From a virus: 27,354 nt of DNA. Of the stretch, positions 830 to 23,900 are shown piece after piece. A program made the translations under genes and the position numbers. The stretch is taken from positions 1 to 27,354 of IMG/VR virus record IMGVR_UViG_3300009001_000072, one strand, 5' to 3'. Below the pieces are notes generated by a model. That model did no database searches and was not told the DNA's origin. It saw only the letters and a list, made by a program, of their open reading frames with translations. Position 1 is the stretch's first letter, and every line of letters starts with the position of its first letter.

Positions 830-1209
830 TGCTCAGCGCAGAGGCTGTGATGCTCGCATTGCTCGCCCTGGTGGCGTCGGCCTTCCCAACGCGCCATATC
901 TGGCGGCAGTGGCGACGGCGACGGGCCGGCGAGAACGTGCCGTGGGCAGCGAGGCTGACCGTGGCTATTCTCGCCGGCTATTGCTGGATTTATTTTGTCA
1001 ATCAGGCGTACTGGGCTTATGCTCGCTACCACGGGATGCCGGCGGTCCTGGTCTATGGTTGGGCAGCACTGGTGCTCAAAGCCGCTGCTGCGGCAGTATT
1101 CGTCGCCATAATTTGGCTATACAGCACACCGAAACGACGAGCGGCCAACGCCCTCACCTATCCGCTGGGGTGCGTGCTGGCTGGACTGCTGTTGATGGCG
1201 GCGCTTTAG
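829..1209 (+). CDS. Holin-like multi-pass membrane protein
   Basis: This 126-residue protein starts at ATG 829, overlapping the preceding TGA. It has four hydrophobic stretches at about residues 5-19, 42-60, 71-97 and 108-126. A very basic loop (RQWRRRRAG) follows the first, and KRR follows the third. Its position after an endolysin and a spanin-like gene suggests it is the holin that permeabilises the inner membrane for the endolysin. No named holin family was recognised, so the function rests on topology and context. It ends convergently with the XRE gene with a four-base overlap, and no obvious terminator lies between them. Confidence 0.6.
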   Translation: MLSAEAVMLALLALVASAFPTRHIWRQWRRRRAGENVPWAARLTVAILAGYCWIYFVNQAYWAYARYHGMPAVLVYGWAALVLKAAAAAVFVAIIWLYSTPKRRAANALTYPLGCVLAGLLLMAAL

Positions 1210-1427
1210 TAGTCGCCCTCCCCAAACCAGAGCCACCCCGCCTTCACGCCGAGCGCGTCGGCGATGGATTGTGCCGTCCGTATCCCTGGGCCCGTCTTCG
1301 GGGCCTCTTCATCAGTTCGGAGCAACTTATGGATTGCGCCGCGGGACGTGCCTGCCCGCCGTTCGATTTCCGCCAGGGTCCATTCTGACTGCTCGATCTC
1401 CGCCCGTAGGCGTGTCTGCCACTCCAT
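1206..1427 (-). CDS. XRE-type HTH regulator, last gene of the leftward operon
   Basis: The 73-residue product is almost entirely a lambda-repressor-like helix-turn-helix: TLAEIERRAGTSRGAIHKLL, then a helix with IADALGVKAGWLWFGEG, a typical XRE ending. It has no dimerisation or cleavage domain, so it is Cro-sized. ATG 1427 is chosen over the upstream TTG because it overlaps the previous gene's TGA and has an AGGAGAGGG ribosome-binding site. It probably binds phage operators; candidates are the dyads at 6894-6908 and 23641-23655 or 6964-6976, but no direct link is visible. Sitting at the distal end of the operon it could act as a late feedback repressor. Confidence 0.75.
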   Translation of the reverse strand: MEWQTRLRAEIEQSEWTLAEIERRAGTSRGAIHKLLRTDEEAPKTGPGIRTAQSIADALGVKAGWLWFGEGDY

Positions 1428-1888
1428 CACCAAATCCCTCTCCTGTCGCTTTCGGCCTGGATCATTTTGCGCCGCTCGTGCTGGACCTCCATTTCGCGCA
1501 AAATCCGCTCTCGCCGGCCTGACGCAGTGTCGCCGTCTTGCGTGGGCGGGGCAATTGTCGTCCCCGCCCCCCTGGGCGCAGATCCCCGGATAGCCTCCTC
1601 GACGGCCCGGTAGGCCGCTGTGGCAATGGGGTTTTGCTGGTCAGGGCCCAGAGCGCGATAACGCGCGAGCGCCTCCATGATCACGCCATGATGCCGGCGT
1701 GCAGCGAGCCCTATTGATCGCAGGCTATAGCCCGCATCGTGGAGGGCAGCCCATAGAGCCACCCTCGGGCCGGAAATATGCGGCGCCCTCGTGCGCTTGG
1801 CCATGTCGGCCTCTGTCGCTGTGGTCGCCGTCAACGCGGCCTTCATTGCTTTTCGGTAGGTCACGGCGTCGATTGTCGCTGGGTTCAT
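1427..1888 (-). CDS. DnaA domain IV-like DNA-binding protein
   Basis: This 153-residue protein has a central segment, residues about 38-80, that resembles the C-terminal DNA-binding domain of DnaA: a helix VALWAALHDAGYSLRSIG, then RRHHGVIMEALARY, matching the DnaA pattern of YSL-x2-IG followed by (D/H)H and a long helix. The usual Ser-Thr after the signature His is replaced by Gly-Val. There is no AAA+ ATPase domain. The C-terminal third is polar and charged. ATG 1888 follows a GGGAGGGG site. It may bind DnaA-box-like sites or regulate replication, but the function is not established. It lies directly after ssb in the operon. Confidence 0.6.
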   Translation of the reverse strand: MNPATIDAVTYRKAMKAALTATTATEADMAKRTRAPHISGPRVALWAALHDAGYSLRSIGLAARRHHGVIMEALARYRALGPDQQNPIATAAYRAVEEAIRGSAPRGAGTTIAPPTQDGDTASGRRERILREMEVQHERRKMIQAESDRRGIW

Positions 1889-1902
1889 CAATTCACCCCT
1901 CC

Positions 1903-2334
1903 CTAGAACGGCATGTCGTCGTCGAGTTCAAAGCCGCCATCGGACTGACCGTAGGCGGGCGGGCGATCGCCGCCCTGTGATCCCCCACCGCCGCCGATCA
2001 ATGTCAGGACGCCGCGGAACCGCTGCAGCACGACCTCGGTGCTGTACTTCTCCTGGCCGCCCTGGTCGGTCCACTTGCGGGTCTGCAGTTGGCCTTCGAC
2101 ATAGACCTCGGAGCCCTTTTGCAGATATTTCTCCGCCACGTCGGCGAGGTTCTGGTCGAAGACAACGACGCGATGCCACTCGGTCTTCTCGCGCTGCTCG
2201 CCAGAGGTCTTGTCCCGCCACCGCTCACTGGTGGCGATCGACATATTCACGATCTTATCACCCGATTGGGTATGGCGGACCTCTGGATCCCGCCCGAGAC
2301 GCCCCAGGATGATCGCCTTATTAACGCCGCTCAT
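1903..2334 (-). CDS. ssb: Single-stranded DNA-binding protein
   Basis: This 143-residue protein is a standard bacterial-type SSB. It begins [20 protein letters not shown] and has the OB-fold core ([40 protein letters not shown]) over residues 1-112. A short glycine-rich linker leads to the acidic tip DDDMPF, which in this family recruits repair and replication proteins. It binds ssDNA in recombination and replication. Its ATG overlaps the stop of the GapR-like gene as ATGA. It is shorter in the linker than host SSBs, as is common for phage copies. The neighbouring ERF protein ends in a very similar acidic tip. Confidence 0.95.
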
Positions 2335-2573
2335 TGGCTGCCCTCCACTGCGTCGATGTAAAGTTCTGTCAGCGCCTGCATTTCGGAGCGCTCGTCGCGC
2401 TCCATCTTCCGCAGCCGGATCACCTGACGGATCGCCTTCGTGTCGAATCCGTTTGCCTTGGCCTCGGCCAATACCTCTCGGACATCCGCGGCGATCGCGG
2501 CCTTCTCCTCCTCCAGATGCTCTATGCGGTGGATGATGGAGCGCAACTGCTCCGTCGCAAAAGTCTCAGTCAT
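2331..2573 (-). CDS. GapR-like DUF2312 nucleoid-associated protein
   Basis: The 80-residue product matches the DUF2312 family: [20 protein letters not shown], then [20 protein letters not shown], then [13 protein letters not shown]. The long N-terminal helix with heptad leucines and isoleucines and the [15 protein letters not shown] helix are the family's dimerisation and DNA-clamping parts. GapR in Caulobacter binds overtwisted AT-rich DNA and aids replication. The phage copy may tune topology at the phage origin or compete with host GapR; that is inference. It starts inside the last codons of ninB (8-base overlap). The family is largely alphaproteobacterial, which supports the host assignment. 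Confidence 0.85.
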
Positions 2574-2985
2574 TGGAGTTTCCTTTCAAGAAACTGGTTT
2601 CCCACTTGGTCCCGGCGGACCACTTCACCCCCCACTCGTCACCCGTCTTGCGGATGAAGGTGAGAAGATCTCGGAACTGCGAGGCTGACAGCAGGGAGGT
2701 GTGCGGAGAGACCGCGAACGGGTATCCGTCCAACCCCTCGGCATACTGCACCTCGTAGCCGCAGGCCTGCATGAAGATTGATTTCCAGACCTCTGGTGGA
2801 TGCGTCCGCCCCTCTGGACGTGCCGCGGCTATGTCCGCCAGCATCGCCCACAGGGCGGCGTTTTGGTCAAGGGTCCGCTGTGGCGGGCCGATCGTCACGA
2901 CGGTATCGGCTGGCGCAGTTTTGATCAGGTTTCGGACCAGAGCGCGCTGCTCTGGTCCTTTGAGAACGACCTTGCGTTTGGTCAT
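2566..2985 (-). CDS. ninB: NinB-like recombination protein
   Basis: This 139-residue protein fits the NinB (lambda Orf) family: an N-terminal RALVRNLIKTAPADTVVTIG, then the family's typical RTLDQNAALWAMLADI, a PEVWKSIFMQACG segment, and a C-terminal LTFIRKTGDEWGVKW. NinB proteins bind ssDNA and SSB-coated ssDNA and help load recombinases, substituting for RecFOR. That fits the neighbours SSB, ERF and the exonuclease. The ATG at 2985 overlaps the exonuclease stop (ATGA) and was preferred to a much longer upstream extension that would run antisense-free but through the exonuclease in another frame. Confidence 0.85.
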   Translation of the reverse strand: MTKRKVVLKGPEQRALVRNLIKTAPADTVVTIGPPQRTLDQNAALWAMLADIAAARPEGRTHPPEVWKSIFMQACGYEVQYAEGLDGYPFAVSPHTSLLSASQFRDLLTFIRKTGDEWGVKWSAGTKWETSFLKGNSND

Positions 2986-3665
2986 GCGGAGATCGGCCCG
3001 AGCAGATTGACGGCTGCCATGCGGTCGTAGATCTGGCGATTGCGCTCCACGTCCGCGCGACAGTATTCGATGATCCCCGAATGCCGGCCTTCCTCCCAGG
3101 CTGTCGCGACCGACGCCCCATCGAGGCCCTCGCCTTTGCCGGGTATCCCGAGGGCGAAGCAGACCTCGTCCAGGCTCACCATGTCCCGGTGACCGGCCCA
3201 GGTGTGCATCAGGTCCACGATAGTGTCCGACCACGGTTTCGGATCTCGCGGCCAATGCCTCGGCAGCGTCACGCCCAGGATGATGGCGCGAATTGTCAGG
3301 AACCTGATGTCGAACCCGGTGATGTTGTGACCTACGAATCGGGCGGCGCGGCCCCTGTTAAGGGCGTCAAAGAACTGCCGCAAGATCTCTGCCTCGCTCT
3401 CCTGAGACCACTCCACCATATGCGTGACCTCGGTGAGCCCTGTCCCAATCGCCCAGCCGATCGTGCAGACGTGGCCGTAGGCAGGATTCATCCCGGCCTT
3501 GTGGACCGCCTCCAAGATCGCGCCAGGCTTTTGTTCCTGTTCCCATTTCTGGATGGTCTCCTCCTTCTTCATGCTGGCGGGCGGGCGCACTCGCGCGGCC
3601 ACCCGGTCGATGGCCTCCTGCGTCTGCGGGGGGATCGTTTCGATGTCGAAAAAGCAGGTTGTCAT
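2982..3665 (-). CDS. PolB-type DEDDy 3'-5' exonuclease
   Basis: The 227-residue product has the DEDD exonuclease motifs in order: Exo I FDIET (D7, E9), Exo II GHNITGFDIRFL (N114, D119), and Exo III YCRADVERNRQIY (Y201, D205), making it DEDDy type. It resembles the stand-alone exonuclease family related to the proofreading domain of family B polymerases (DNA_pol_B_exo2). It probably trims 3' ends in recombination or replication. No polymerase domain is attached. Its message has the ACTGGAGAC leader motif before ATG 3665. It is followed by ninB with an ATGA overlap and preceded by the annealing protein. Confidence 0.88.
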   Translation of the reverse strand: MTTCFFDIETIPPQTQEAIDRVAARVRPPASMKKEETIQKWEQEQKPGAILEAVHKAGMNPAYGHVCTIGWAIGTGLTEVTHMVEWSQESEAEILRQFFDALNRGRAARFVGHNITGFDIRFLTIRAIILGVTLPRHWPRDPKPWSDTIVDLMHTWAGHRDMVSLDEVCFALGIPGKGEGLDGASVATAWEEGRHSGIIEYCRADVERNRQIYDRMAAVNLLGPISA

Positions 3666-3677
3666 TGTCGTCTCCAG

Positions 3678-4442
3678 TTAGAACGGGATCTCGTCGTCGA
3701 GATCCTTTGCGAGGTTGCTCGCGGGTTTGTCGGCGGGTTTGTCCGCCTGGGCCAGCAGGACGGCCTTGATCTTATCTTTGGTGGACCGGACCGGCCCAAG
3801 GGCCTTCAATGCGGGTGGAAACGCCTTCCAGACCTCCGACAGCCCGTCGAGGCTGGTGCAGGCTGACATTGTCTCCAGAGCCGCCTGGATGGCCTCTCTG
3901 TCGATGGCCGGCGCTGCTGGCTTGTCCTGCGCCTTGGGCGGCTCGCCGCTCTCCTCGTCGCTCCCAGGCTCTTCGTGTGTCGCACGCAGGCTCTCGCCCT
4001 TGTGCCACAGATCCAGGGCTGCGCCGAACCTCATGGCCGCATTCCGCAGGGCATCGCCGATCGTCTCTTTGATTGCGTCTCCGCCCCGCTTGCCGTCCGG
4101 GTGACCATATCCGAGGCGGGCGACGCCGCAGACGGTGAGCCGGATCCACATGCCGCCGTTCTGGTCGATCGCAGGGGTGCCGTCTTCGCTCACGGTGACC
4201 GGCTCCCAGTTCCACTGTGGGTCAGCGTCGAGGAGGCGGTTGGTCAGGGCGGCGTGGCCGACGTAGGAGAGGTGCGTGGCATTGCGATGATGGTAGCCGC
4301 CGCACTGTTTGCAGTTGATGTAGCCGGCCCGGTCCTCGGTCTGCCGTTTGCTCTGCTTAGGCAGCAGCGAGATCTGGCTGTCCGGGAATGGCTCGCGGAG
4401 GAGGGATAATCCGTTAAGGGGTTGAGTCTTCTTGTCAGTCAT
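3678..4442 (-). CDS. erf: ERF/Rad52-like single-strand annealing protein
   Basis: This 254-residue protein matches the ERF-like annealing family of phages: a CKQCGGYHH segment near residue 45, then LSYVGHAALTNRLLDADP, WNWEPV, GGMWIRLTVCGVARLGYG, and DAIKETIGDALRNAAMRFGA. The core covers about residues 35-155. A charged linker and a helical C-terminal region follow, ending in LDDEIPF. It should anneal complementary ssDNA and drive circularisation or replication-linked recombination with SSB and the exonuclease. ATG 4442 was chosen over an upstream TTG because it overlaps the stop of the 36-residue gene (ATGA). The end resembles the SSB acidic tip. Confidence 0.88.
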   Translation of the reverse strand: MTDKKTQPLNGLSLLREPFPDSQISLLPKQSKRQTEDRAGYINCKQCGGYHHRNATHLSYVGHAALTNRLLDADPQWNWEPVTVSEDGTPAIDQNGGMWIRLTVCGVARLGYGHPDGKRGGDAIKETIGDALRNAAMRFGAALDLWHKGESLRATHEEPGSDEESGEPPKAQDKPAAPAIDREAIQAALETMSACTSLDGLSEVWKAFPPALKALGPVRSTKDKIKAVLLAQADKPADKPASNLAKDLDDEIPF

Positions 4443-4549
4443 GTCATCACCAAAAGCACGATCCAAAACAGCATCACGGCGTAGAACGCGGCAGCCCCGA
4501 GCAGGGCCGCTGCGTCATAGATCCAGGCTCGCAGACTACTTTTTCGCAT
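4439..4549 (-). CDS. 36-residue single-pass membrane protein
   Basis: A short gene lies between the 139-residue protein and erf. ATG 4549 opens a frame starting MRKSSLRAWIYDAAALLGAA and continuing through a hydrophobic stretch (FYAVMLFWIVLLVMT) to a TGA at 4439-4441. The start overlaps the previous gene by 14 bases and the stop overlaps erf's ATG as ATGA, the same coupling as its neighbours. The positive N-terminus followed by one membrane helix predicts a small inner-membrane protein with its N-terminus in the cytoplasm. No family was recognised. Small membrane proteins in this position can be exclusion or host-takeover factors, but that is speculation. Confidence 0.65.
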   Translation of the reverse strand: MRKSSLRAWIYDAAALLGAAAFYAVMLFWIVLLVMT

Positions 4550-4955
4550 GGCTTTGGTCCGTCAGGATGTTGCTGGAGAGATCCTGCATCAGGGTCTGCA
4601 GCGGGTTGACGTAGCGCACGTCGATCCCTGCCTCCTCGCCCGCGGCAATCAGATTCGAGACCTGCTGCATGAAGGCCTGGAGCCGGCGCGCGTCCCCATC
4701 TGGGAGGCCGTTCGCCCAGTCGAGCGCCTCCTGCAGCGCCTCCTCCAGGGTGTCCGCCCGGAAGTGCTGCCGGCGTTGGCGGTCCCATTTGTGCCGGTCC
4801 TTGTCAGCGCCGCTGTCCCAATACGAGACGTGCATCTTGCTCACGTTGTCCTCGTTGGCCTCCAGCAGCACAAACGCCTCCGGGCAAACGAGACCCTTGT
4901 CCAGCATGACCTGGGCGATCGCGTCCAGGGCTTTCGACACTTGGTAGATTTCCAT
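4536..4955 (-). CDS. Conserved-looking phage protein of unknown function (139 aa)
   Basis: The product begins MEIYQVSKALDAIAQVMLDK and is rich in acidic and aromatic residues, with a YWDSGADKDRHKW patch in the middle and a mostly helical C-terminal half. No enzyme motif, membrane segment or signal peptide is seen. The start at 4955 is chosen because the region upstream belongs to the preceding gene and a CTGGAG ribosome-binding site sits just before it. It lies in the leftward early operon two bases after the previous stop, so it is co-expressed with the recombination genes. The function is unknown. Confidence 0.75.
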   Translation of the reverse strand: MEIYQVSKALDAIAQVMLDKGLVCPEAFVLLEANEDNVSKMHVSYWDSGADKDRHKWDRQRRQHFRADTLEEALQEALDWANGLPDGDARRLQAFMQQVSNLIAAGEEAGIDVRYVNPLQTLMQDLSSNILTDQSHAKK

Positions 4956-4957
4956 GA

Positions 4958-5245
4958 CTATTCTCCAGTCGGGTTGAGGTTTTCGGCGGCGATCTCGGCG
5001 TCCTGCAGGCACTCCTCGCAGAGCCCGGACGTGATCATCGCATCCAGTTCAGTCACCCCGCACTCGCCGCAGCGGTGGAGGGTGGCGAGGTTATAGACGG
5101 CGTCCAATTTGGGTCCGTTGCGGCTGGCGCACTGGCAGCCATGCCGGAACTCCAGGCCGTCGAGGAACTCCCCGACAGTCTGCTCTCGTTCGCGCTCCAG
5201 GGCATCCCAGATGTCGCGCATCGTCACAAAAATGGGTACAGGCAT
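4958..5245 (-). CDS. Small zinc-ribbon protein (95 aa)
   Basis: The 95-residue product has cysteine pairs C37-x-C39, C59-x2-C62 and C76-x2-C79 (HGCQCA, RCGEC, LCEEC), suggesting one zinc ribbon from the last two pairs. The N-terminal half is helical and charged (RDIWDALEREREQTVGEF). ATG 5245 is preceded by CTGGAGACGACGGG, a form of the operon's repeated initiation motif; an internal ATG nine residues... inside the frame (MRDIW) is an alternative without that motif. Likely roles are nucleic-acid or protein binding; no named family was recognised. Confidence 0.75.
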   Translation of the reverse strand: MPVPIFVTMRDIWDALEREREQTVGEFLDGLEFRHGCQCASRNGPKLDAVYNLATLHRCGECGVTELDAMITSGLCEECLQDAEIAAENLNPTGE

Positions 5246-5274
5246 CCCGTCGTCTCCAGTCTCAGGGGTGGTGG

Positions 5275-6030
5275 TTATTTCACGCGCATGCCGGTGTAGG
5301 GGCTCTCCAGGGCTATCCCCCAGGCGCGATTGATCAGGGCTGTCTGTTCGTCGGAGCCGCTGTAGTCGCCCAGGGTGGCCCACTCGTAGGCGGACGCCAT
5401 CCAGGGGTTGGGGTCACAAACATCGTGCAGGGCATCCGCGCCAAGGCCGGTTGCGTTGGCGTTCTCGGCGTTGACCTTGTCCGCCTCGGCGGCGGTCAGG
5501 CCGCGGGCGACGATCCGGTGGAAGGTGTCGGCGATCTCCAGCGCGATCTGCTGGTTGTCATAATCCGCGGCGGCGTCGGCCACCTGCTTGTCGGCCTCGG
5601 CCAGGGCAGCCACGAACAATTCCTCGGCGCGCTGCCAGGAGCAGTCGTCTTCCTCGCCAGAGAAGAAAACGCCCAAAATAACGCCCCAGTCGTCGACATC
5701 ATAGTCGCAGTAGGTGGCAGCCATGCGCTTCTGCAGGTAGGCGTCAAGGTCATAGTCGGCCTCGGTCCACTCGTCGTAGCGCGCATGCATCATCCACAGG
5801 ATGCTCTCGGCCTCGTCGAGGGATTCCAGGGTGCCGTCGAACCGATCGGCCAAGACCTGATATTTGCCCTCATCGAAGGGGCCGACGCCGATGATCGAAC
5901 CGCCCGAGTATTCGATGACCTCGTTGCAGTCAGGGTAGATCTCTCGGTCGGTGTCGTTTGCGGGGCGGCGTTTGCCGGTGGTGGTCCACGCGAGGCACTC
6001 GGTTGGGCGGCAGAAATGCGGGGTCATCAT
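5275..6030 (-). CDS. Acidic protein of unknown function (251 aa)
   Basis: The protein is strongly acidic and rich in Trp, Tyr and Ala, with segments such as DCNEVIEYSGGSIIGVGPFDE, ILWMMHARYDEWTEADYDLD and a long Ala/Glu-rich helix (ALAEADKQVADAAADYDN). No catalytic motif, membrane segment or cysteine cluster was recognised. The start is one of two adjacent ATGs (6030 or 6027) behind a CACTGGAGACGATCA leader. It is the third gene of the leftward operon. Strong acidity in an early phage protein would fit DNA mimicry or interaction with host DNA-binding proteins, but there is no direct evidence for this. Confidence 0.75.
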   Translation of the reverse strand: MMTPHFCRPTECLAWTTTGKRRPANDTDREIYPDCNEVIEYSGGSIIGVGPFDEGKYQVLADRFDGTLESLDEAESILWMMHARYDEWTEADYDLDAYLQKRMAATYCDYDVDDWGVILGVFFSGEEDDCSWQRAEELFVAALAEADKQVADAAADYDNQQIALEIADTFHRIVARGLTAAEADKVNAENANATGLGADALHDVCDPNPWMASAYEWATLGDYSGSDEQTALINRAWGIALESPYTGMRVK

Positions 6031-6100
6031 TGATCGTCTCCAGTGCAGAATGGTGATGGTATATCAGGTTTCGGTGTTTGGCCAGAGGCATGTTGATGGT

Positions 6101-6121
6101 GGGGGGACTTGAAGTCCCCCC
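6101..6121 (-). promoter_or_regulatory. Intergenic RNA hairpin with CUUCAAG loop
   Basis: A perfect inverted repeat has ten-base arms (6101-6110 and 6112-6121) around one central base. In the leftward message it folds as six G-C pairs plus A-U and C-G, closing a UUCAA loop. It lies just after the stop of the 131-residue gene and about 70 bases before the next start. No U-tract follows (the message continues ACCAUCAAC), so it is not a standard intrinsic terminator. Attenuation, mRNA processing or stability are possible roles. A near copy follows the capsid gene at 26004. Confidence 0.7.
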
Positions 6122-6127
6122 TAGGCA

Positions 6128-6523
6128 TTACGCCGCGGCTGCGAGGCAGGCCTTCACGGCGTTTGCCGGGAATTTGTAGATCTTGCCGTTTTCGCGAGAC
6201 TGCCCCAGGATGGGCATCTTGGTGGCGCGGGTCTTCAGACCGATAATCTCAAAGGTTTCGCCGCCATAGGAGAACTCCTTGCCCAGATCGTCGGGCGAGA
6301 GGCCGTAGCGGAACGCATAGGCGACGAAATCAACCGCCTCTTTTGTCTGGACCGTTCCGTCGCTGTCGATCGCGGCGATCTCCAGTTTCATGGTGGCCCA
6401 CTCCGCGGTGTAGGTGCCGCGGCCCGTGGTGATTGTAACGCCGTGCTTCTTGGCGACAGCGGCCAGCGCCTCTTCGACATCGGCGCGAATGGACTTGAGC
6501 AACGTGGGGGTGATAACGGTCAT
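6128..6523 (-). CDS. Phage protein of unknown function (131 aa)
   Basis: The product starts MTVITPTLLKSIRADVEEAL and alternates helices and strands: KKHGVTITTGRGTYTAEWATMKLEI, AVDFVAYAFRYGLSPDDLGKEF, and GETFEIIGLKTRATKMPIL. The C-terminus reads GKIYKFPANAVKACLAAAA. It looks like a small globular cytosolic protein; no named domain was recognised. ATG 6523 is preceded by CTGGAGACCAGAC, and the 18 bases ending the leader and opening the gene are identical to those at the 23587 gene. It is the second gene of the leftward operon. Confidence 0.78.
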   Translation of the reverse strand: MTVITPTLLKSIRADVEEALAAVAKKHGVTITTGRGTYTAEWATMKLEIAAIDSDGTVQTKEAVDFVAYAFRYGLSPDDLGKEFSYGGETFEIIGLKTRATKMPILGQSRENGKIYKFPANAVKACLAAAA

Positions 6524-6590: not shown

Positions 6591-6842
6591 TTATTCTGCC
6601 TCGGCGGCGAGGCGGGCGTCGATGTAATCGCGGAACTCAACTGCGAGATCGTCCTGATCAAAGTCGGCGTCGAGCATCAGGTCGTCGAGTTCCCAGCCCT
6701 TGATGCAGTCTTTGACATCCTCTGCGACATCGACCTCGCGGAGGTCATCGTCGGAGGCATTGCACAGCCACTCGGCGGCAATGGCGGCGATCAGGTCGGA
6801 GCGGAAGCGGAACAAGCAGCCGGCAAATTCGTAGTCAGACAT
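6591..6842 (-). CDS. First gene of the leftward operon, small acidic protein (83 aa)
   Basis: The product begins MSDYEFAGCLFRFRSDLIAA and is very acidic, with DDDLREVDVAEDVKDC, ELDDLMLDADFDQDDL and EFRDYIDARLAAEAE. It has no recognised domain. ATG 6842 is preceded by CTGGAGACCCCCA and sits about 45 bases downstream of the -10 of the leftward promoter, so this is the promoter-proximal and probably most highly expressed early gene. A much longer frame upstream exists but would run through the promoter and the initiator gene, and is rejected. Small acidic first genes are often host-takeover proteins; here that is only a suggestion. Confidence 0.8.
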   Translation of the reverse strand: MSDYEFAGCLFRFRSDLIAAIAAEWLCNASDDDLREVDVAEDVKDCIKGWELDDLMLDADFDQDDLAVEFRDYIDARLAAEAE

Positions 6843-6843
6843 T

Positions 6844-6878
6844 GGGGGTCTCCAGTTGGTTGGTGGGGCTCGCTGCCC
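6844..6878 (-). promoter_or_regulatory. Leftward leader: hairpin, CCAACCAA spacer, CTGGAGAC ribosome-binding site
   Basis: Reading leftward, a small hairpin (GGGC/GCCC arms at 6875-6878 and 6866-6869 around AGCGA) is followed by CCACCAACCAA, then CTGGAGACC and ATG 6842. GGAG is the Shine-Dalgarno core. The stretch is nearly identical to 23588-23624 upstream of the other leftward cassette, which shows that the leader is a conserved unit and not incidental sequence. Confidence 0.65.
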
Positions 6879-6886
6879 TCCACTCA

Positions 6887-6914
6887 TATATACGTCACCA
6901 ATCGTGACATGCAA
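6887..6914 (-). promoter_or_regulatory. Leftward early promoter with internal operator dyad
   Basis: On the minus strand, TTGCAT (-35, 6914-6909) and TATATA (-10, 6892-6887) are 16 bases apart. The spacer holds a perfect dyad, GTCAC-CAATC-GTGAC (6894-6908), the classic place for a repressor operator. The predicted start lies just upstream of the leader of the 6842 gene. A second copy of this arrangement is at 23633-23661. The binding protein is probably one of the phage HTH proteins (6992, 8487 or 1427 genes); which one cannot be told. Confidence 0.75.
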
Positions 6915-6956
6915 CACCCCCTTTCGTTTTTTCTGATTTTTTTTCATGGCCGGTGA

Positions 6957-6984
6957 TTGTTTGCCCCCAGCGGGGGTGTTATCT
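6957..6984 (+). promoter_or_regulatory. Rightward promoter with C5-AGC-G5 dyad, probably leaderless transcript
   Basis: TTGTTT (6957-6962) and TTATCT (6979-6984) are 16 bases apart, and the spacer contains the dyad CCCCC-AGC-GGGGG (6964-6976). A start about seven bases after the -10 would fall on or next to the ATG at 6992, and there is no Shine-Dalgarno sequence before that ATG, so the message is probably leaderless. The nine bases AACACCCCC at 6913-6921 recur inverted at 6972-6980, linking the two divergent promoters. The -35 and -10 matches are moderate. Confidence 0.55.
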
Positions 6985-6991
6985 CTATCAC

Positions 6992-7222
6992 ATGATGACT
7001 GAAGCACAAAAACTCTCCCGCCTGCTGGGCCGCTCCGCGATCGCCGCGGCCCTTGGCGTCGTCCCATCGTCGGTCTCCAACGCGAGCAAGAAAGGCGTGT
7101 TCCCGGCTGCGTGGTATCTCGTGGTCCGTAGCCTGGCGCACGAGCAGGGTCTGGATTGCCCGGTGGAGGCATTCGCCTTCGCGGAGCGGGTCGAGGAAGA
7201 GCAACGCGATCTCGCGGCGTGA
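6992..7222 (+). CDS. Cro-like regulator (76 aa)
   Basis: The product has the small helix-turn-helix architecture often found at the start of the rightward early operon in alphaproteobacterial phages: RSAIAAALGVVPSSVSNASKKG, then FPAAWYLVVRSLAHEQGLDC. GRSAIAAALGV-x-SSVSN is the turn and recognition helix. It probably binds operators between the divergent promoters. Two adjacent ATGs (6992, 6995) are possible starts and neither has a ribosome-binding site, in keeping with leaderless translation. The stop overlaps the GTG of the initiator gene, so both are coupled. Cro or repressor role cannot be separated from sequence alone. Confidence 0.75.
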   Translation: MMTEAQKLSRLLGRSAIAAALGVVPSSVSNASKKGVFPAAWYLVVRSLAHEQGLDCPVEAFAFAERVEEEQRDLAA

Positions 7223-8082
7223 GCGTCAAACTCCTCCAGAGCGTCGTCGAGGCGAGGTGTGCAGCAGGTGGGGAACTGGCGCTGCTGCTGGTCCTGGCTT
7301 GGCATGCGCGCGACAGCGGCGAGTGCTGGCCGTCTGTGCAGACGCTCGCCGATGAATGCGGCTGCGATCCGCGATCCGTCCGCCGGCAATTGTCGTCTCT
7401 GGAATCGCGCGGTCTCATCTGCCGGATCCACCGGCCCGGTAGCCGGTCAACCTACATGATCACCCCTGACGCTACTGTCACCCCTGACACTACTGTCAGT
7501 CCTGACGCTAGTGTCCGCAACCCCGGACGCCAGCGTCAGGACACCCCTGACACTAGCGTCAGCCAAAAGGTAAAGAGAAAGGTAAAGGAAAGGGAAACCC
7601 CCTATAATCCCCCTTCTGTCACTGGAGACACCGATGAGCAAACCGACAAGCCAGCCGACACCGATCGGCGACCTACTGCCAAACGCGCCACCCTCATCCC
7701 CTGGGACTGGTGGCCGGATCCCGCCGGCATTCAATATGCGATCGAACGCGGATGCCCCGATGTCCCCGGAGAGGTCGCGGCCTTCATCGACTACAGCCAG
7801 TCAACCGGCAAGCGGTATATCGACCACGCAGCCGCATGGCGGACGCGATGTCGTAACGCCGCCAGCAGGTTTGGCTGGTCCGCCGGCACCGGCCCGCGAG
7901 GTCGTCAAGGCCGCAATGCGGGAGATCGAAGCCGCGCAGCAAATGATCGACTGTTTGCCGCCGCCTCTGATTTGGCGGCTGAATGGTCAGAGGGAGAGCG
8001 AGATCACCCTGCCGATCGGACCGGATCAGGTGTGGTGTCCATTGCTGACCACTCCTCCAGGCGCAGGTCTGGGTCAGGGTAG
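7219..8082 (+). CDS. O-type replication initiator with N-terminal winged helix
   Basis: The 287-residue protein starts at GTG 7219, overlapping the previous TGA. Residues about 1-75 are a winged helix of the phage-initiator type: ALLLVLAWHARDSGECWPSV, then QTLADECGCDPRSVRRQL and SSLESRGLI. A proline/threonine linker encoded by iterons follows (about 80-115), then a basic stretch KVKRKVKERE, and a C-terminal part with IPWDWWPD and FIDYSQSTGKRYIDHAAAWRTRC, as in O-type proteins. It should bind the iterons inside its own gene and recruit the helicase loader. The last 55 or so residues overlap the next gene and look poorly conserved. Confidence 0.82.
   Translation: MSVKLLQSVVEARCAAGGELALLLVLAWHARDSGECWPSVQTLADECGCDPRSVRRQLSSLESRGLICRIHRPGSRSTYMITPDATVTPDTTVSPDASVRNPGRQRQDTPDTSVSQKVKRKVKERETPYNPPSVTGDTDEQTDKPADTDRRPTAKRATLIPWDWWPDPAGIQYAIERGCPDVPGEVAAFIDYSQSTGKRYIDHAAAWRTRCRNAASRFGWSAGTGPRGRQGRNAGDRSRAANDRLFAAASDLAAEWSEGERDHPADRTGSGVVSIADHSSRRRSGSG
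7461..7600 (+). other. Probable replication origin: iterons plus purine-rich tract inside the initiator gene
   Basis: Five related imperfect palindromes of the form TGAC(A/G)CTA(C/G)(T/C)GTCA lie at 7467-7480, 7485-7498, 7503-7516, 7525-7538 (inverted) and 7548-7561. The first, second, third and fifth point the same way and are preceded by CCCC or similar. A purine-rich, easily melted stretch follows at about 7564-7597 (AAAAGGTAAAGAGAAAGG and on). Iterons next to an A-rich tract in the middle of the O-type gene match the layout of the lambda origin. Confidence 0.75.
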
Positions 8083-8497
8083 GCCGCATGTCAGGCACAC
8101 GATCCTGCGGCAGGGCGGCTACCTGACGCTGAAGGCCTATGTCGATGCCCAGCATCAACTGGCTCCAGTGGCAACGACGGAGGAGCGGATCGCGGCCGTC
8201 GCGGAGGGACTGCAGTTCTGGCGCAGCCGCCTGGACAGCCAGATGGCGGACGACATGGCCGCGAAGGCCCTCCTCCGCACCTGGGCGCTGGCCCTGGACG
8301 GATACCCGCTGTGGGTGATCCGGGCAGCATGGCAGCGTGTGAACAGCAGCCGAGAGTGGCCACCGGAGCCGACGCACGTCCTAGCCGTCTGCACCCGCCT
8401 CTGGGGTAAACAGGGGCGGCTCCTGCAGCGGGGGATCGTCGCCGTGAGCGACTGCGAGGAACTGCGCCCAGAGTGGAGGCCTGACGATGGCGCGTGA
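7916..8497 (+). CDS. Possible helicase loader or replication accessory protein (193 aa)
   Basis: The frame starts near ATG 7916 behind AAGG and overlaps the end of the initiator by 167 bases. It begins MREIEAAQQMIDCLPPPLIW and has a helical C-terminal half with RIAAVAEGLQFWRSRL, ALLRTWALALDGYPLWVI and REWPPEPTHVLAVCTRLW. The ALDGYPLWVIRAA-x-W-PP(E/T)P pattern recalls small proteins that follow O-type initiators in alphaproteobacterial phages. By position it may be a P-type loader of DnaB, but it has no Walker motif and no direct evidence. The frame is open upstream to 7634, but that part shadows the initiator. Confidence 0.6.
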   Translation: MREIEAAQQMIDCLPPPLIWRLNGQRESEITLPIGPDQVWCPLLTTPPGAGLGQGRPHVRHTILRQGGYLTLKAYVDAQHQLAPVATTEERIAAVAEGLQFWRSRLDSQMADDMAAKALLRTWALALDGYPLWVIRAAWQRVNSSREWPPEPTHVLAVCTRLWGKQGRLLQRGIVAVSDCEELRPEWRPDDGA

Positions 8498-8753
8498 CCG
8501 TGTCCAGTTTTTAGAGGCCATGCAGGCCAGGATCATTGCATCCATGCGGGCGCAGGGGATCTCGCAGACCTATCTGGCGGAGTCCACAGGTCACGCCCGC
8601 CAGACGATCGGCAAGGTGCTCGCCCCGATGACCACAGATCGAGCATTTAAGAATGGACCTAAGATCTGGGAACTGATACAGATCGCAGAAGTATTGGAGG
8701 TTGACCCGCGCCGGCTTATTTTTGGGATGGATAATGATGATCTATCTCAATGA
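8487..8753 (+). CDS. XRE-family HTH regulator (88 aa)
   Basis: The product carries an XRE helix-turn-helix: ARIIASMRAQGISQTYLAES and TGHARQTIGKVLAP, then a helical segment IWELIQIAEVLEVDPRRLIF, the usual end of such domains. It starts 11 bases before the previous stop with GGAGG upstream. It is a third potential repressor for the operators described here. Base composition in its second half is more AT-rich than its neighbours, hinting at a different origin. It ends inside the start of the methyltransferase gene. Confidence 0.78.
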   Translation: MARDRVQFLEAMQARIIASMRAQGISQTYLAESTGHARQTIGKVLAPMTTDRAFKNGPKIWELIQIAEVLEVDPRRLIFGMDNDDLSQ

Positions 8754-9666: not shown

Positions 9667-9995
9667 AGGCGTCCGAGAGCCAGGAGCAGATGGCGTTCGT
9701 GGACTGGTTTCGGCGGGCCTATCCCAGTCACCTCATCATGCATATCCCTAACGGCGAGCGGCGTGACGCCCGCACTGGTAGCAAACTGAAACGCATGGGG
9801 GTGCTGCCAGGGGTGCCGGATCTTTTCATCCCGGAGTTGGCTCTCTGGGTGGAGATGAAAGGCACCTCGGGCGGTCGATTGTCGAAGGATCAGGAGCGGG
9901 TGATCGGATTGTTGGAGATCGCCGGCTATGACGTGATCGTGGCCCACGGCTGGGAAGATGCCCGCCGTCAGGTCACAGAACATTTACAGGGATAG
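9654..9995 (+). CDS. VRR-NUC domain nuclease
   Basis: The 113-residue protein is a stand-alone VRR-NUC module of the PD-(D/E)XK superfamily: E11 in the first helix, GVPDLFIP with D56, LWVEMKGTSGG with E67 and K69, and SKDQ with Q80. This order matches the family, which includes structure-selective nucleases such as FAN1 and many phage proteins. It probably resolves branched DNA during replication or packaging. The ATG lies 13 bases before the methyltransferase stop, so the two are coupled. Confidence 0.88.
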   Translation: MPRLKASESQEQMAFVDWFRRAYPSHLIMHIPNGERRDARTGSKLKRMGVLPGVPDLFIPELALWVEMKGTSGGRLSKDQERVIGLLEIAGYDVIVAHGWEDARRQVTEHLQG

Positions 9996-9999
9996 GCCG

Positions 10000-10854
10000 G
10001 TGGACCTTCACCGTAGGCCGACCGCGGGCGCGGCCTTCAACGCCCAGGCTCTCTACCCAGGTGGCCCACCTGTCTGGGATGAGCAAACCGTCTCCGCCGG
10101 TCTAGGGGATGTTTGGCGGAAAGTCTGGGAAGCCCGTATTCCAGGAGTCCAAAGTGCAATGGTAACCGCTCGCGACCGCGCCGAGGTCAGTACCACCCTC
10201 AACTCAGCCGCCGTTGGCCTGATGGACGCCGGCCTGGATTGGTATGTCGGGCAGACGGCCCCGCAGCAGGAGTGGCGGGCGCACGGGATCCTGGGAGACC
10301 TGGACATCCCGGCATTCCTGCCAACGCAAAGCCGGTGGATTAGCCCATCGCGACACCGGAAAACTAAGACCCGCCGGCAGTACGCGATCATGCCCAGGAT
10401 GCTGTTCGTCGGGTTCAGTCGCGGCCATGAGCGCTGGCTCGATCTGCTCAACCGGACGCCGGTCATGTCGGTGATCGGTGTGGCTGGTGTCCCGACTGCC
10501 CTGCCAGGACACGTCGTCCAGGGCTTCGTCGATCGGATCGGGGCTGAGGTCGATCGGCCTGACTGGCAGCGGCACATGCCGCGCGGGCGAGAATATAAGG
10601 TGGGCGATCGTGTCCGCATCATAGACGGGGCTCTCAAGGGTCACGTCGTAACGGTCGCGGAAATCCGCGGGCCGAAATCCTGGGTGCTGTCTCAGCAGAT
10701 GCTGCTGGCTCACGCGCTCGAAATCCCAACGCGATATCTGGAGATAGATCGCGATGACACTACAGACAATCGTCCTCCGATACGACGAGATGCTGATGGC
10801 CGCACAGGCCGGCGTCCTCCGAACAATCGAAAATCTCAAGAAGGGCAGACGTGA
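10000..10854 (+). CDS. NusG/RfaH-like transcription elongation factor
   Basis: The protein has a NusG N-terminal domain from about residue 80 (WYVGQTAPQQEWRAHGIL, AFLPTQ, YAIMPRMLFVGFSRG, MSVIGVAGVPTALP) and a KOW motif near residues 199-226 (YKVGDRVRIIDGALKGHVV). NusG-type proteins bind RNA polymerase and suppress pausing or termination. Encoded shortly before the late genes, it may do the job of lambda Q; that is inference. The start is uncertain: GTG 10000, ATG 10159 and ATG 10222 (two residues before WYV region, like ordinary NusG) are all in frame. The last 100 bases overlap the next gene. Confidence 0.72.
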   Translation: MDLHRRPTAGAAFNAQALYPGGPPVWDEQTVSAGLGDVWRKVWEARIPGVQSAMVTARDRAEVSTTLNSAAVGLMDAGLDWYVGQTAPQQEWRAHGILGDLDIPAFLPTQSRWISPSRHRKTKTRRQYAIMPRMLFVGFSRGHERWLDLLNRTPVMSVIGVAGVPTALPGHVVQGFVDRIGAEVDRPDWQRHMPRGREYKVGDRVRIIDGALKGHVVTVAEIRGPKSWVLSQQMLLAHALEIPTRYLEIDRDDTTDNRPPIRRDADGRTGRRPPNNRKSQEGQT

Positions 10855-20704: not shown

Positions 20705-22949
20705 CAGAGCATTGATGCTCGCCTGGGAGCGCGCCCTGCTGGAGGGGCGGCGTTTTCCCGGAGGCGCTGCCTACGAGCAGAGAGAGCGGCCCGCGAACGC
20801 CGCGAAGCCAGGGCCGAGCGCCTTTGCTGAATACATCGCGCCTTTGCTGGCAATTGCCACGAAGACCGATAACCTTGACGACATGGAGGGCTTTTATCAG
20901 GCCGCGGCCTCGCCGTCGCTGCGTCCCACCGATGATATTGAGCCGCCGCAGTTGGCTAAGACGCTCTCTTTCATGGTGCCGGGTGGCGGTGATGTGGTGG
21001 GGGCGATGGATGACGCCCCGCACGTTGCCAGGGCGTGGCAGGGGGCGGTAAGCGAGCCATCTGTCGGGAGTGTCGGCTCTGCCTTGGGACAGACTGCATT
21101 GGCCGGCCTAAGCGCCTTTACAGCCGTCCCGGCTCTGCTTGGGAGCATAGCGGGCAAGGGGGCGAAAACCGCCGATCTTGTGAAATTGCGCCAGGCCGAG
21201 GAAATGGCGGCAAAGGGCGCAAGCCGCGAGGCGATCTATGATGCCACGAAGTGGTGGGCCGGCCCTGACGGGAAGTGGCGGTTTGAGATCGACGACAGCG
21301 GCATGAGGGTAAAGGGCGGCAGCGGCAAACTTGGCGACGTGGTGGAACACGACAAGTTGTTTGCTGCATATCCTGATCTGGCAGATATTGATGTCGAGGT
21401 TGGCGGTCTGCCCCGGAATAGTTATGGCGAATACTATGGCGGCGAGGCCGGCGAATCTATCAAATACCGGCCCAAAGGCGGAGACGCTGGGAAAAAACCG
21501 CTTTTGCATGAAAGCGGACACGCCATCGAAAGCCGTGAGGGGTTCGCCAAGGGCGGCAATATGTTTGGCCTTACCAAGGAGAATGGCGGGGTCCAAGTCT
21601 ATCGCCAGATCTTGGAGGACATGACCACACCCAGGCCGATAGAGGATTTTGCAAGAGAAGCCGGTTTTGAGAGCGTGGATGCGGCACAGGATGCTTATGC
21701 CCAATATGTGAAGGGCATAGAAAAAATGCGCCGCAGTGGCGTCCCCCCGGCGCTCGATCGTGCTGCCCAAGAGACCGCGATGCGTCAGGCCTATGAACGC
21801 CAGACTGGTGAGGCCTATGCGCGGCTGGCGGAGACGCGGGCGGATTATTCCAAGGCACAGCGTGACGCGCGATACCCATGGCTTGACCTCGACGTTCCAG
21901 AGGACCAGCAGATCGTGCGATTCCGCAGCAACGGCCCGCAAATGAGCGCTGCATCGGGCCGGCGATTGCTGCATGATGCGCCTTACTCAAAATACAAGAT
22001 CGACCCAGACCTACCCCAGAGGCTGGATCAAGGCCTGACAGTGCGGGCCACGCCCGACTATGAGCCGCCGCGAGTGATCTCGCCGGAAGACCTGATGCGA
22101 TATGATTATCTACTCAATCTGGTCGGCGACAGGACAAATGTGGGCGAGATCACCCGACTGTACGGTGAACTGTTAAACATGCCTATCCGCCTTGATGGTG
22201 GGCAAGGTTACATGAGAGGTCTCGGCACGGGGGCCTGGGCATCGGATCCCAACGTGACCAAGCGACTGGCCAATGCCGTGAGGTCCGCCGATGGTCGATC
22301 GGTCCTCGGGACTTATATGGCCATGAGCGGCACCGGCTCCGACTTTGCCAACATGACGCGAGACGTGGCGTTGCGTAATTTTAACCCCGGTGAACTGCGG
22401 AAAAGGGATATTCGCGAGTTCAACAAGAGGTTCAAGGCGGCGAAGGGTTTTGAAAAACTGACCCAGGACTTCCCCGGCATAGAATCCCCGGAGTTGTCAG
22501 CATGGTTGGACAAATCCGGGACACGGCGCGCGGCCTTCTTTGATTTCTTGGACAGGCGGGGATGGGTTGAAAGAGGTTTCCCGGATGTCACCGCCGCCCG
22601 CTACGCCATCCAAGATCCGCAGTTGCGCGACCTTCCGGCTGGCGTTGAGCAGTATGGCGGGACATCTATGGCGCTCATGGACCCTGCTGGAACGGTCAGG
22701 CATGTTTCTGACACTGGGATGCCTCACGCCACCTACCCGACAGATATGCCTGGGCAGTACATAGGCGGGCTTCAACAGCCGGTGCCGCGGCGGTTGCTGT
22801 TCCCAGAATGGTATGAGGAACGCCGATTGTCTGGCGCGGCACCCGCCGGGGACAATCGTGCGTTCCAGATGAGTCAGGTGCTGCAGCCGATCAATCAGAA
22901 ATGGCTAGACGACCTGATGAAGTGGGTTGAGGCTAATCAACCCCGATAA
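20694..22949 (+). CDS. Large polyvalent protein with zincin-like HExxH domain
   Basis: The 751-residue protein begins with a region like that of the ART protein (FMVPGGGDVVGAMDDA, HVARAWQGAVSEPSVG, a hydrophobic 130-152). A domain near 165-237 (AIYDATKWWAGPDGKWRFEI, HDKLFAAYPDLADIDV) matches a polyvalent-protein-associated domain. It is followed by PLLHESGHAIESREGFAKGG with HESGH (H272, E273, H276), a zinc peptidase signature. The C-terminal half has YLLNLVGDRTNVGEITRLYG and SGTGSDFANMTRDVALRNFN, familiar from the same protein class. It likely enters the host with phage DNA. Its stop overlaps the convergent leftward cassette by 17 bases. Confidence 0.72.
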   Translation: MASDRALMLAWERALLEGRRFPGGAAYEQRERPANAAKPGPSAFAEYIAPLLAIATKTDNLDDMEGFYQAAASPSLRPTDDIEPPQLAKTLSFMVPGGGDVVGAMDDAPHVARAWQGAVSEPSVGSVGSALGQTALAGLSAFTAVPALLGSIAGKGAKTADLVKLRQAEEMAAKGASREAIYDATKWWAGPDGKWRFEIDDSGMRVKGGSGKLGDVVEHDKLFAAYPDLADIDVEVGGLPRNSYGEYYGGEAGESIKYRPKGGDAGKKPLLHESGHAIESREGFAKGGNMFGLTKENGGVQVYRQILEDMTTPRPIEDFAREAGFESVDAAQDAYAQYVKGIEKMRRSGVPPALDRAAQETAMRQAYERQTGEAYARLAETRADYSKAQRDARYPWLDLDVPEDQQIVRFRSNGPQMSAASGRRLLHDAPYSKYKIDPDLPQRLDQGLTVRATPDYEPPRVISPEDLMRYDYLLNLVGDRTNVGEITRLYGELLNMPIRLDGGQGYMRGLGTGAWASDPNVTKRLANAVRSADGRSVLGTYMAMSGTGSDFANMTRDVALRNFNPGELRKRDIREFNKRFKAAKGFEKLTQDFPGIESPELSAWLDKSGTRRAAFFDFLDRRGWVERGFPDVTAARYAIQDPQLRDLPAGVEQYGGTSMALMDPAGTVRHVSDTGMPHATYPTDMPGQYIGGLQQPVPRRLLFPEWYEERRLSGAAPAGDNRAFQMSQVLQPINQKWLDDLMKWVEANQPR

Positions 22950-23163
22950 AGTCAAGGTCGGTGTTGAAGTCGTCCTTTTCCACACCGTGCTTGGCAAGGA
23001 TCTCCGCTTGGCGGGCAAGCAGGTCTGAGCGGACATCGGCTGGTAGGTCCGAAAACTCCGCGGCGGAGTGCTGGGCTAGCGCCTCAAGTCCGATGCGTTC
23101 GATCTCGTTGTAGGCCACCATCTGCGATCGAACACGGGCGATGGACGGGGGGTCTTGGGTCAT
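22933..23163 (-). CDS. Leftward cassette, third gene (76 aa, unknown)
   Basis: The product begins MTQDPPSIARVRSQMVAYNE and is helical and charged, with LEALAQHSAAEFSDLPADVR and ARQAEILAKHG. No motif was recognised. The ATG overlaps the previous stop (ATGA), and the end overlaps the zincin-like gene tail-to-tail. The four-way use of this short overlap implies no independent terminator between the opposing operons. Confidence 0.65.
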   Translation of the reverse strand: MTQDPPSIARVRSQMVAYNEIERIGLEALAQHSAAEFSDLPADVRSDLLARQAEILAKHGVEKDDFNTDLDFIGVD

Positions 23164-23393
23164 TGGAAGATTACCCTTTCAAGTTCTGAGGTGATGTAAC
23201 GGCAGAGGCGTTCTGCCGTCTCTGTGTCGCCCTGATGCAGGACGTTCCTGGCTCTCTCTATGACTGGCTCCAGGCGCTCCAGTGTCGCCTGGATGCTCTC
23301 CGGGGCGGTTCTGCCCTTGTCGCAGTATTTCGCGTCCAGGGCGGTGCTGCAGGGCGTGTCGGTCATGCGGTGGCAGATCTGGCAGCGGGTCAT
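23160..23393 (-). CDS. Leftward cassette, second gene: small zinc-finger-like protein (77 aa)
   Basis: The product starts MTRCQICHRMTDTPCSTALD, with cysteines at 4, 7, 15 and 24 (CQIC, C, YC), which could bind one zinc ion. The rest is a helical, charged segment ending ERLCRYITSELERVIFQ. GAGGAG precedes ATG 23393. It is coupled to the third gene by ATGA. Similar small zinc proteins occur among phage early genes; the function is unknown. Confidence 0.68.
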   Translation of the reverse strand: MTRCQICHRMTDTPCSTALDAKYCDKGRTAPESIQATLERLEPVIERARNVLHQGDTETAERLCRYITSELERVIFQ

Positions 23394-23404
23394 CGGGGGC
23401 TCCT

Positions 23405-23587
23405 CTAGTGGGTGTGACCGCTTTCATTGCGGACAGGGCCAACCCAGTTGCCGCTGCGGTCGTAGTCCATAATCCAGCGGTTAGCCTCAAGGAGGTTGGC
23501 CGCGTCGTCGATGCGACCCTGGCACTCCAAGGCCTCAATTTTATCATTGAGGCGGTTTAGTTCAGAAATCAATTCGATGCGGGTCAT
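23405..23587 (-). CDS. Leftward cassette, first gene (60 aa, unknown)
   Basis: The product starts MTRIELISELNRLNDKIEAL, a regular amphipathic helix that probably dimerises as a coiled coil, and continues AANLLEANRWIMDYDRSG. ATG 23587 follows CTGGAGACCAGAC, and the 18 bases covering this motif and the start are identical to those at the 6523 gene. It is nearest to the second operator-bearing promoter. Longer upstream frames would run through the leader hairpin and are rejected. Confidence 0.7.
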   Translation of the reverse strand: MTRIELISELNRLNDKIEALECQGRIDDAANLLEANRWIMDYDRSGNWVGPVRNESGHTH

Positions 23588-23591
23588 GTCT

Positions 23592-23624
23592 GGTCTCCAG
23601 TTGGTTGGCGGGGGAGCGATCCCC
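23592..23624 (-). promoter_or_regulatory. Leftward leader: hairpin, CCAACCAA spacer, CTGGAGAC ribosome-binding site
   Basis: Leftward, GGGGA/TCCCC arms (23620-23624 and 23611-23615) around a four-base loop are followed by GCCAACCAA and CTGGAGACC before ATG 23587. It matches the leader at 6844-6878 in order and largely in sequence. Confidence 0.65.
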
Positions 23625-23632
23625 TCCACCCC

Positions 23633-23661
23633 TATATAGCGTCACGAAAGGTGACTTGCAA
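23633..23661 (-). promoter_or_regulatory. Second leftward promoter with the same operator dyad
   Basis: On the minus strand TTGCAA (23661-23656) and TATATA (23638-23633) are 17 bases apart, with the perfect dyad GTCAC-GAAAG-GTGAC (23641-23655) in the spacer. Both dyad arms match the 6894-6908 operator exactly, while the central five bases differ. On the plus strand the AAAGGTGA inside the dyad is also the only plausible ribosome-binding site for the gene starting at 23664. Confidence 0.75.
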
Positions 23662-23663
23662 GT

Positions 23664-23900
23664 ATGGATGACACACAAAAACAGGGTGAGGCGCATTATT
23701 TGCTGCAGCATCCCCTGCTGAACGAAATCCTTGACGGGATAGAGCGCCAGGCGATCGAAACCGCCGTTTTCGCGCGCCCGTCAGACGATGAAACACGCCG
23801 CACCACGATGGAAACCGTGCGTGTGGTCAGATCTTTGCGGGAGCAGTTGGCCGAGATCGCGGAGCCAACCAAGCCCACCCGCAAGGCGTCGATCGCATAG
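23664..23900 (+). CDS. Small helical protein before the scaffold gene (78 aa)
   Basis: The product begins MDDTQKQGEAHYLLQHPLLN and continues as helices (LDGIERQAIETAVFARPSDD, RVVRSLREQLAEIAEP). Small helical proteins with this HPLL-x-E-ILD-x-IE-type opening often lie between portal and capsid genes in podoviruses, where their role is unclear. Its ribosome-binding site AAAGGTGA falls inside the divergent operator dyad. It reopens the rightward late operon after the leftward cassette. Confidence 0.7.
   Translation: MDDTQKQGEAHYLLQHPLLNEILDGIERQAIETAVFARPSDDETRRTTMETVRVVRSLREQLAEIAEPTKPTRKASIA

Follow-up and report, generated by a model that had tools for sequence, protein, structure and literature searches.

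Two Similar Leftward Promoter Modules in a Phage Genome and a Cro-like Protein as Their Candidate Regulator

Two Leftward Promoter Modules

Can one phage protein control two sets of genes that lie 17 kb apart, one in the early and one in the late region? The question is raised by two leftward promoter modules, at 6842–6914 (A) and 23585–23661 (B), in the 27,354-bp stretch of viral DNA analysed here (the window). Each contains a −35 box, the dyad GTCAC-N5-GTGAC, the box TATATA, a short leader, CCAACCAACTGGAGA and an ATG (minus strand, at 6842 under module A and at 23587 under module B). A preliminary description of this sequence had pointed out that these elements recur in the same order at both places and had proposed that one repressor governs the main early operon and a small cassette in the late region. 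The coordinates of all features are given in Table 1.

Table 1. Positions of the two modules, the neighbouring genes and the Cro-like gene with its promoter
Feature	Position	Strand	Remark or basis
Module A: PL promoter with its operator and leader, heading the early leftward operon	6842–6914	−	
−35 box of PL, TTGCAT	6914–6909	−	
Operator A, GTCAC-GATTG-GTGAC (GTCACGATTGGTGAC)	6894–6908	−	inside the 16-bp PL spacer; geometry as in relatives
−10 box of PL, TATATA	6887–6892	−	1 nt (G) after operator A; sequence
PL leader, ~40 nt	6848–6883	−	
Leader, short GC stem-loop	6883–6862	−	
Leader, CCAACCAA	6863–6856	−	
Leader, Shine–Dalgarno (SD) CTGGAGAC	6855–6848	−	
First gene of the leftward operon, 83 aa	6591–6842	−	no family match
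Remaining leftward early operon	1206–6523	−	
Single-strand annealing protein	3678–4466	−	leftward operon
Exonuclease	2982–3665	−	leftward operon
NinB/Orf	2566–3255	−	leftward operon
SSB	1903–2334	−	leftward operon
HTH proteins	1427–1891 and 1206–1433	−	leftward operon
PR of the Cro-like gene, TTGTTT-N17-TATCTC	6957–6992	+	ATG 7 nt on; sequence; predicted leaderless
Cro-like protein, 76 aa, proposed operator reader	6992–7222	+	recognition helix at about residues 25–34
Module B: second promoter–operator–leader copy, in the late region	23585–23661	−	
−35 box of promoter B, TTGCAA	23661–23656	−	
Operator B, GTCAC-CTTTC-GTGAC (GTCACCTTTCGTGAC)	23641–23655	−	inside a 17-bp spacer; sequence
−10 box of promoter B, TATATA	23633–23638	−	2 nt (GC) after operator B; sequence
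Leftward cassette under module B	22933–23587	−	three ORFs, no family match
Cassette ORF, 60 aa	23587–23405	−	
Cassette ORF, 77 aa	23393–23160	−	
Cassette ORF, 76 aa	23163–22933	−	
Rightward late gene, phrog_12935	23664–23900	+	start 3 bp from the −35 box of promoter B

The likeness of the modules was borne out by comparison with random sequence. Their local alignment comprises ~53 identities in 70 columns, from the −35 box to the SD, and scores 41, against a maximum of 37 and a median of 16 for 300 random 74-mers compared with the rest of the genome; the likeness ends at the SD. Both leaders carry CCAACCAA followed by the SD CTGGAGAC, and in both modules the dyad occupies the −35/−10 spacer. 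By element, identical positions number 10/10 in the dyad arms, 2/5 in the dyad centre, 5/6 in the −35 box, 6/6 in the −10 box, 16/16 in the linker and SD, and 0/4 in the gap between the SD and the ATG. The PL unit was probably duplicated or transferred to give module B.

The exact dyad is present in the window at these two sites only, and allowing one mismatch adds none. Because chance alone would give 0.9 sites with one mismatch allowed, the dyad by itself is weak evidence, and the strong part of the evidence is its repetition within a 70-bp module. The combination of identical arms and a differing centre had been taken as the mark of a selected binding site; the arms do agree fully, but this contrast taken alone is weak (Fisher p = 0.02), and the centre of operator B is also part of a possible SD on the opposite strand. 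The small G/C hairpin, originally counted among the elements of the module, did not survive the comparison with shuffled sequences: the leader stem-loops fold at −11.1 and −18.1 kcal/mol, no better than shuffles (z of −0.6 and −1.3), and the hairpin was rejected as a selected element. One stem pair switches from C-G to G-C between the modules, which is a compensated change.

A sigma-70 consensus scan listed neither promoter at its threshold, and we regard the promoter boxes of both modules as plausible from their sequence. Such sub-threshold promoters with imperfect −35 boxes would suit a dyad that is the site of an activator or of a host regulator and not the operator of a phage repressor. 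We consider this very improbable: the dyad fills the −35/−10 spacer, the classical place for steric repression, the arms of related operators follow a phage-encoded protein, as described below, and the exact promoter/dyad pattern was found, copies of the window virus aside, in one unrelated viral contig only. Matches to the leader pattern alone, in six viral contigs (own copies again aside), were taken as chance; none of these contigs shares proteins with the window, and the two matches that were inspected both lie in unrelated sequence. On the comparison with relatives given below, an operator role for the dyad is very probable.

Genes Around the Modules

The virus probably infects alphaproteobacteria. 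It is reasonable to regard the leftward operon under module A as a typical early recombination operon, because its downstream genes are recombination genes (Table 1); a search with its 83-aa first gene found no relatives. In the rightward direction, the HTH gene at 6992 is followed by a gene for an O-like replication initiator. This gene holds three 18-bp tandem repeats (7460–7515) and then A/G-rich 12-bp repeats (7566–7597), an arrangement that resembles an iteron-containing replication origin of the lambda type. A NusG-like protein (9958–10854) matches a phage antiterminator family.

The cassette under module B runs leftward amid rightward structural genes, including those for the portal, the scaffold and an SU10-type capsid protein. 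The cassette, which may be a moron, has a promoter-like unit of its own, and a search with its 77-aa ORF found copies of the same virus only. No intrinsic terminator was found on the minus strand after 22933. The near-identical contigs (L007–L010) are copies of the same virus and hence uninformative on conservation. One near-identical contig runs 5.3 kb beyond the right end of the window; no further GTCAC dyad was found in this extension, and neither the window nor the extension contained an integrase, resolvase or Peptidase_S24 domain. The virus record may be incomplete.

Operator B also adjoins a rightward late gene. It ends 8 bp before the ATG at 23664, a start that is backed by a full-length match to phrog_12935, and the plus-strand GAAAGGTGA within operator B, which includes the dyad centre, is a plausible SD for this gene. 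Operator B could accordingly be imagined to act mainly on the late operon, by blocking rightward RNA polymerase or by hiding the 23664 start, and repressor roadblocks do exist, as described for stoperators (PMC6550527). We find such a main role scarcely credible, given that the whole leftward unit (boxes, leader, SD and ORF) is kept with operator B and that the site is a single distal one with no stoperator series.

The Cro-like Protein and Its Relatives

The AlphaFold model of the 6992 protein has a pLDDT of 90, and its top PDB matches are the Cro proteins of Xfaso 1, N15 and P22, all of them weak (Foldseek E of 0.14 or worse). Pfam Cro matches were obtained for 5 of 20 family members, with a best E of 0.005, and the NCBIfam carph-isopro domain (NF046037) scores 19.9 bits, under its curated cut-off of 38 bits. 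The product is most likely a lytic repressor, which we call Cro-like and not a proven Cro; there is no clear sign that it is an immunity repressor.

Relatives in EBPR podovirus 2 and Paracoccus phage Shpa were identified by tblastn. A single-sequence search of viral contigs with the 6992 protein returned none, and a search with an alignment of these three proteins yielded four loci in bacterial genomes (Falsigemmobacter, Pseudovibrio and Paracoccus) and 22 in viral contigs, making 26 loci of which about 18 are distinct. The structure-model alignment was built without EBPR podovirus 2. In most relatives, the cro-like gene begins a few bases past a −10-like box, and its mRNA is therefore predicted to be leaderless.

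A perfect 5-N5-5 dyad lies at most 50 bp upstream of the Cro-like start in 12 of 20 distinct loci (0.85 expected; maximum of 4 in 500 shuffles). It nearly always lies at about −27 (beginning at −25 to −28 with corrected starts), in the −35/−10 spacer of the gene's own promoter, the position that it also has in the modules of the window. These loci keep the placing of the dyad between the promoter boxes, and the arms differ by group (TCCAC, GCTAA, TTCAC, GCCAT, TACAT and TACGA), the GTCAC of the window being a seventh type. With the arms taken from PR, a second site pair, 30–31 bp apart, was found upstream, on the PL side, in 10 of the 12 loci, compared with no pair in 200 trials with scrambled arms. 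Further sites lie at fixed positions (−52/−78 or −70). In the near-complete relatives, the operator sites cluster in the early control region; outside it, only scattered one-mismatch or chance-level matches and no distal operator copy were seen. In L015, L017, L024, L016, L020 and L038, the cro-like gene itself also contains an operator-like dyad, at a fixed distance of about +197 to +201.

In the relatives, the operator found at PR is also found at PL, whereas the window has the GTCAC dyad at PL and not at PR. No such dyad occurs at its PR within 2 mismatches, and the PR spacer holds GCCCC-CAGCG-GGGGT, at −29, in its place. The dyad hence covers only half of the main switch region. The PR dyad was rejected as a repeated operator, being present as a single exact copy in the window, and a role as an intrinsic terminator was considered unlikely because no rightward transcription into it is known. 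The window contains just two copies of the string GGGGGTGTT, oppositely oriented, at 6913–6921 (minus strand) by the −35 box of PL and at 6972–6980 (plus strand) beside the −10 box of PR. Two copies were obtained in 3 of 100 shuffles, and it is possible that the string is a second regulatory element.

The window differs from its relatives in further respects: it has one operator per promoter, a distal copy of a kind not seen in them, no CI gene beside cro and no integrase that could be found. PL and PR stand back to back (6842–6992) with no CI gene between them, which departs from the lambda-type immunity layout, and the Cro-like gene is the first gene of PR, divergent from PL, in both the window and L021. 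In most relatives, the neighbour of the cro-like gene is a divergently oriented HTH gene of the CI type; no CI lies beside cro in the window, L021 and Shpa. Locus L021 likewise has PL and PR back to back without a CI between them, with TTCAC-N5-GTGAA in both spacers, and its SD and start (GGAGACCAGACATGACC) are identical to those of module B.

Covariation of Operator Arms and Recognition Helices

The helix–arm pairs are TAVSNAV with TCCAC, HSVRxAR with GCTAA, SKSxxSN with TACAT, SAVNNQ with TTCAC and, in the window, SSVSNAS with GTCAC. Across 18 loci, several of whose arms were called by eye, the Mantel correlation between arm and helix is 0.81, with a partial correlation of 0.62 given the rest of the protein; the reverse partial, for the rest of the protein given the helix, is 0.18. 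Restricting the comparison to automatically called arms (13 loci) gave r = 0.85 and a partial of 0.60. The Mantel control is approximate, with shared ancestry incompletely removed, and the covariation is partly phylogenetic. The helix of L021 is among the nearest to that of the window, and the arms of the two loci have the inner CAC in common, a feature that accompanies the VSN/VNN helix in the Cro-like family.

This covariation supports the Cro-like protein as the probable reader of the dyad. Since operators occur at the early promoters of the relatives and their arms follow the helix, the 6992 product is favoured over the 8487 and 1427 products, which had been named with it as candidates. 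In most relatives, the covariation cannot separate Cro from CI, because a divergent CI there should read the same sites; in the window, L021 and Shpa, the Cro-like protein is favoured because there is no CI beside cro.

A division of labour is also conceivable, in which another phage HTH protein of the CI type (1206–1433 or 8487–8753) reads the GTCAC operators and the Cro-like protein reads GCCCC-N5-GGGGT at its own PR. It would agree with a PR that has no GTCAC dyad and with the confinement of GGGGGTGTT to PL and PR in the window; both HTH proteins match HTH_3, and the 1206 product, encoded last in the PL operon, is similar to the N-terminal part of CI-like repressors from two Pseudomonas phages. 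We judge this division unlikely. The operator-bearing loci were found to contain no relative of either protein, and neither aligns with the CI of a relative. In the Pseudomonas phages whose repressors are 1206-like, the intergenic region at the repressor gene lacks a GTCAC dyad, and the inner CAC tracks the helix of the Cro-like family.

Proposed Regulation and Comparison with Known Systems

One phage protein probably reads the dyad at both modules. The original proposal of one repressor for the early operon and the late cassette is retained to this extent, but the favoured protein is Cro-like, with little to suggest an immunity repressor, and its gene has no neighbouring CI. We consider it fairly likely that the Cro-like 6992 protein binds both modules and turns down the recombination operon and the three-gene cassette. 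Modules A and B would then be two copies of one promoter–operator–leader unit, in which a dimer of the 76-aa protein would occupy the GTCAC-N5-GTGAC dyad in the promoter spacer and keep RNA polymerase out. Early in infection, PL and PB would both fire, PL giving the recombination operon and PB the three small proteins of the moron-like cassette, until the Cro-like protein, building up from a leaderless PR transcript, would shut both promoters down together. That the promoters are repressed, when this happens and what becomes of the cassette products are all inferred.

A wider interpretation, which we put forward only tentatively, is a CI-less, Cro-only circuit in a lytic phage. It would have kept the Cro-like protein and the PL operator, while PR was freed from the shared operator or given another; through the copying of the whole PL unit, an accessory cassette of the late region would have joined the Cro regulon, and its genes would be expressed only early though they lie among late genes.

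The locus shares with lambda-type control of PL and PR by Cro and CI (lambda, P22, N15) a leftward recombination operon, a rightward cro with an O-like gene, symmetric operators at promoters and a small Cro-fold protein. It differs in that CI is missing beside cro, PR has no copy of the operator and PL has only one; in addition, the late region contains another PL-type unit. In PY54, cI and cro have leaderless transcripts; this phage has CI and a single operator, at OR3 and not at PL, and N15 has extra operators elsewhere, at repA (PMC4488713). A cro read from a leaderless transcript (predicted here) and a reduced operator set are common to the window and PY54, and an operator elsewhere is common to the window and N15, whereas a late cassette does not appear in the sections of that source that deal with them. 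The pid moron of P22 is a small ORFan of the late region, transcribed against its neighbours under separate control, with a Rho-independent terminator (PMC3573128); the sections on pid mention no copy of an early operator, whereas a PL-unit copy accompanies the cassette of the window. Mycobacteriophage stoperators, with up to ~30 sites for one repressor, mostly outside promoters (PMC6550527), resemble the present operators in lying outside the switch region and in a site sequence that tracks the repressor. The window differs in having only two sites, both symmetric and within promoters.

Distal operators under a switch repressor and counter-transcribed small genes in late regions are already known, as these sources indicate (PMC4488713, PMC6550527, PMC3573128). 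A limited literature search brought up no description of a phage lacking CI beside cro in which a copy of the entire PL unit serves a cassette of the late region. The locus suggests how an accessory cassette within a late operon could stay timed with the early genes, by bringing its own copy of the PL unit. Hall et al. (as cited in PMC4488713) proposed recognition rules on the basis of lambdoid Cro proteins; the seven operator arms, matched to Cro-like recognition helices of alphaproteobacterial phages, would provide a test set for such rules of protein–DNA recognition, and the arm/helix comparison predicts operators for phages that lack experimental work.

EBPR podovirus 2 has a lone leftward gene in its late region, gp30 (L054:21030–21359), with no operator-like dyad nearby. 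In viral contig L014, which is otherwise unrelated and has no detectable relatives of the window proteins, positions 1423–1449 follow the same promoter plan, TTGCA-N2-GTCACCAAAGGTGAC-N-TATA.
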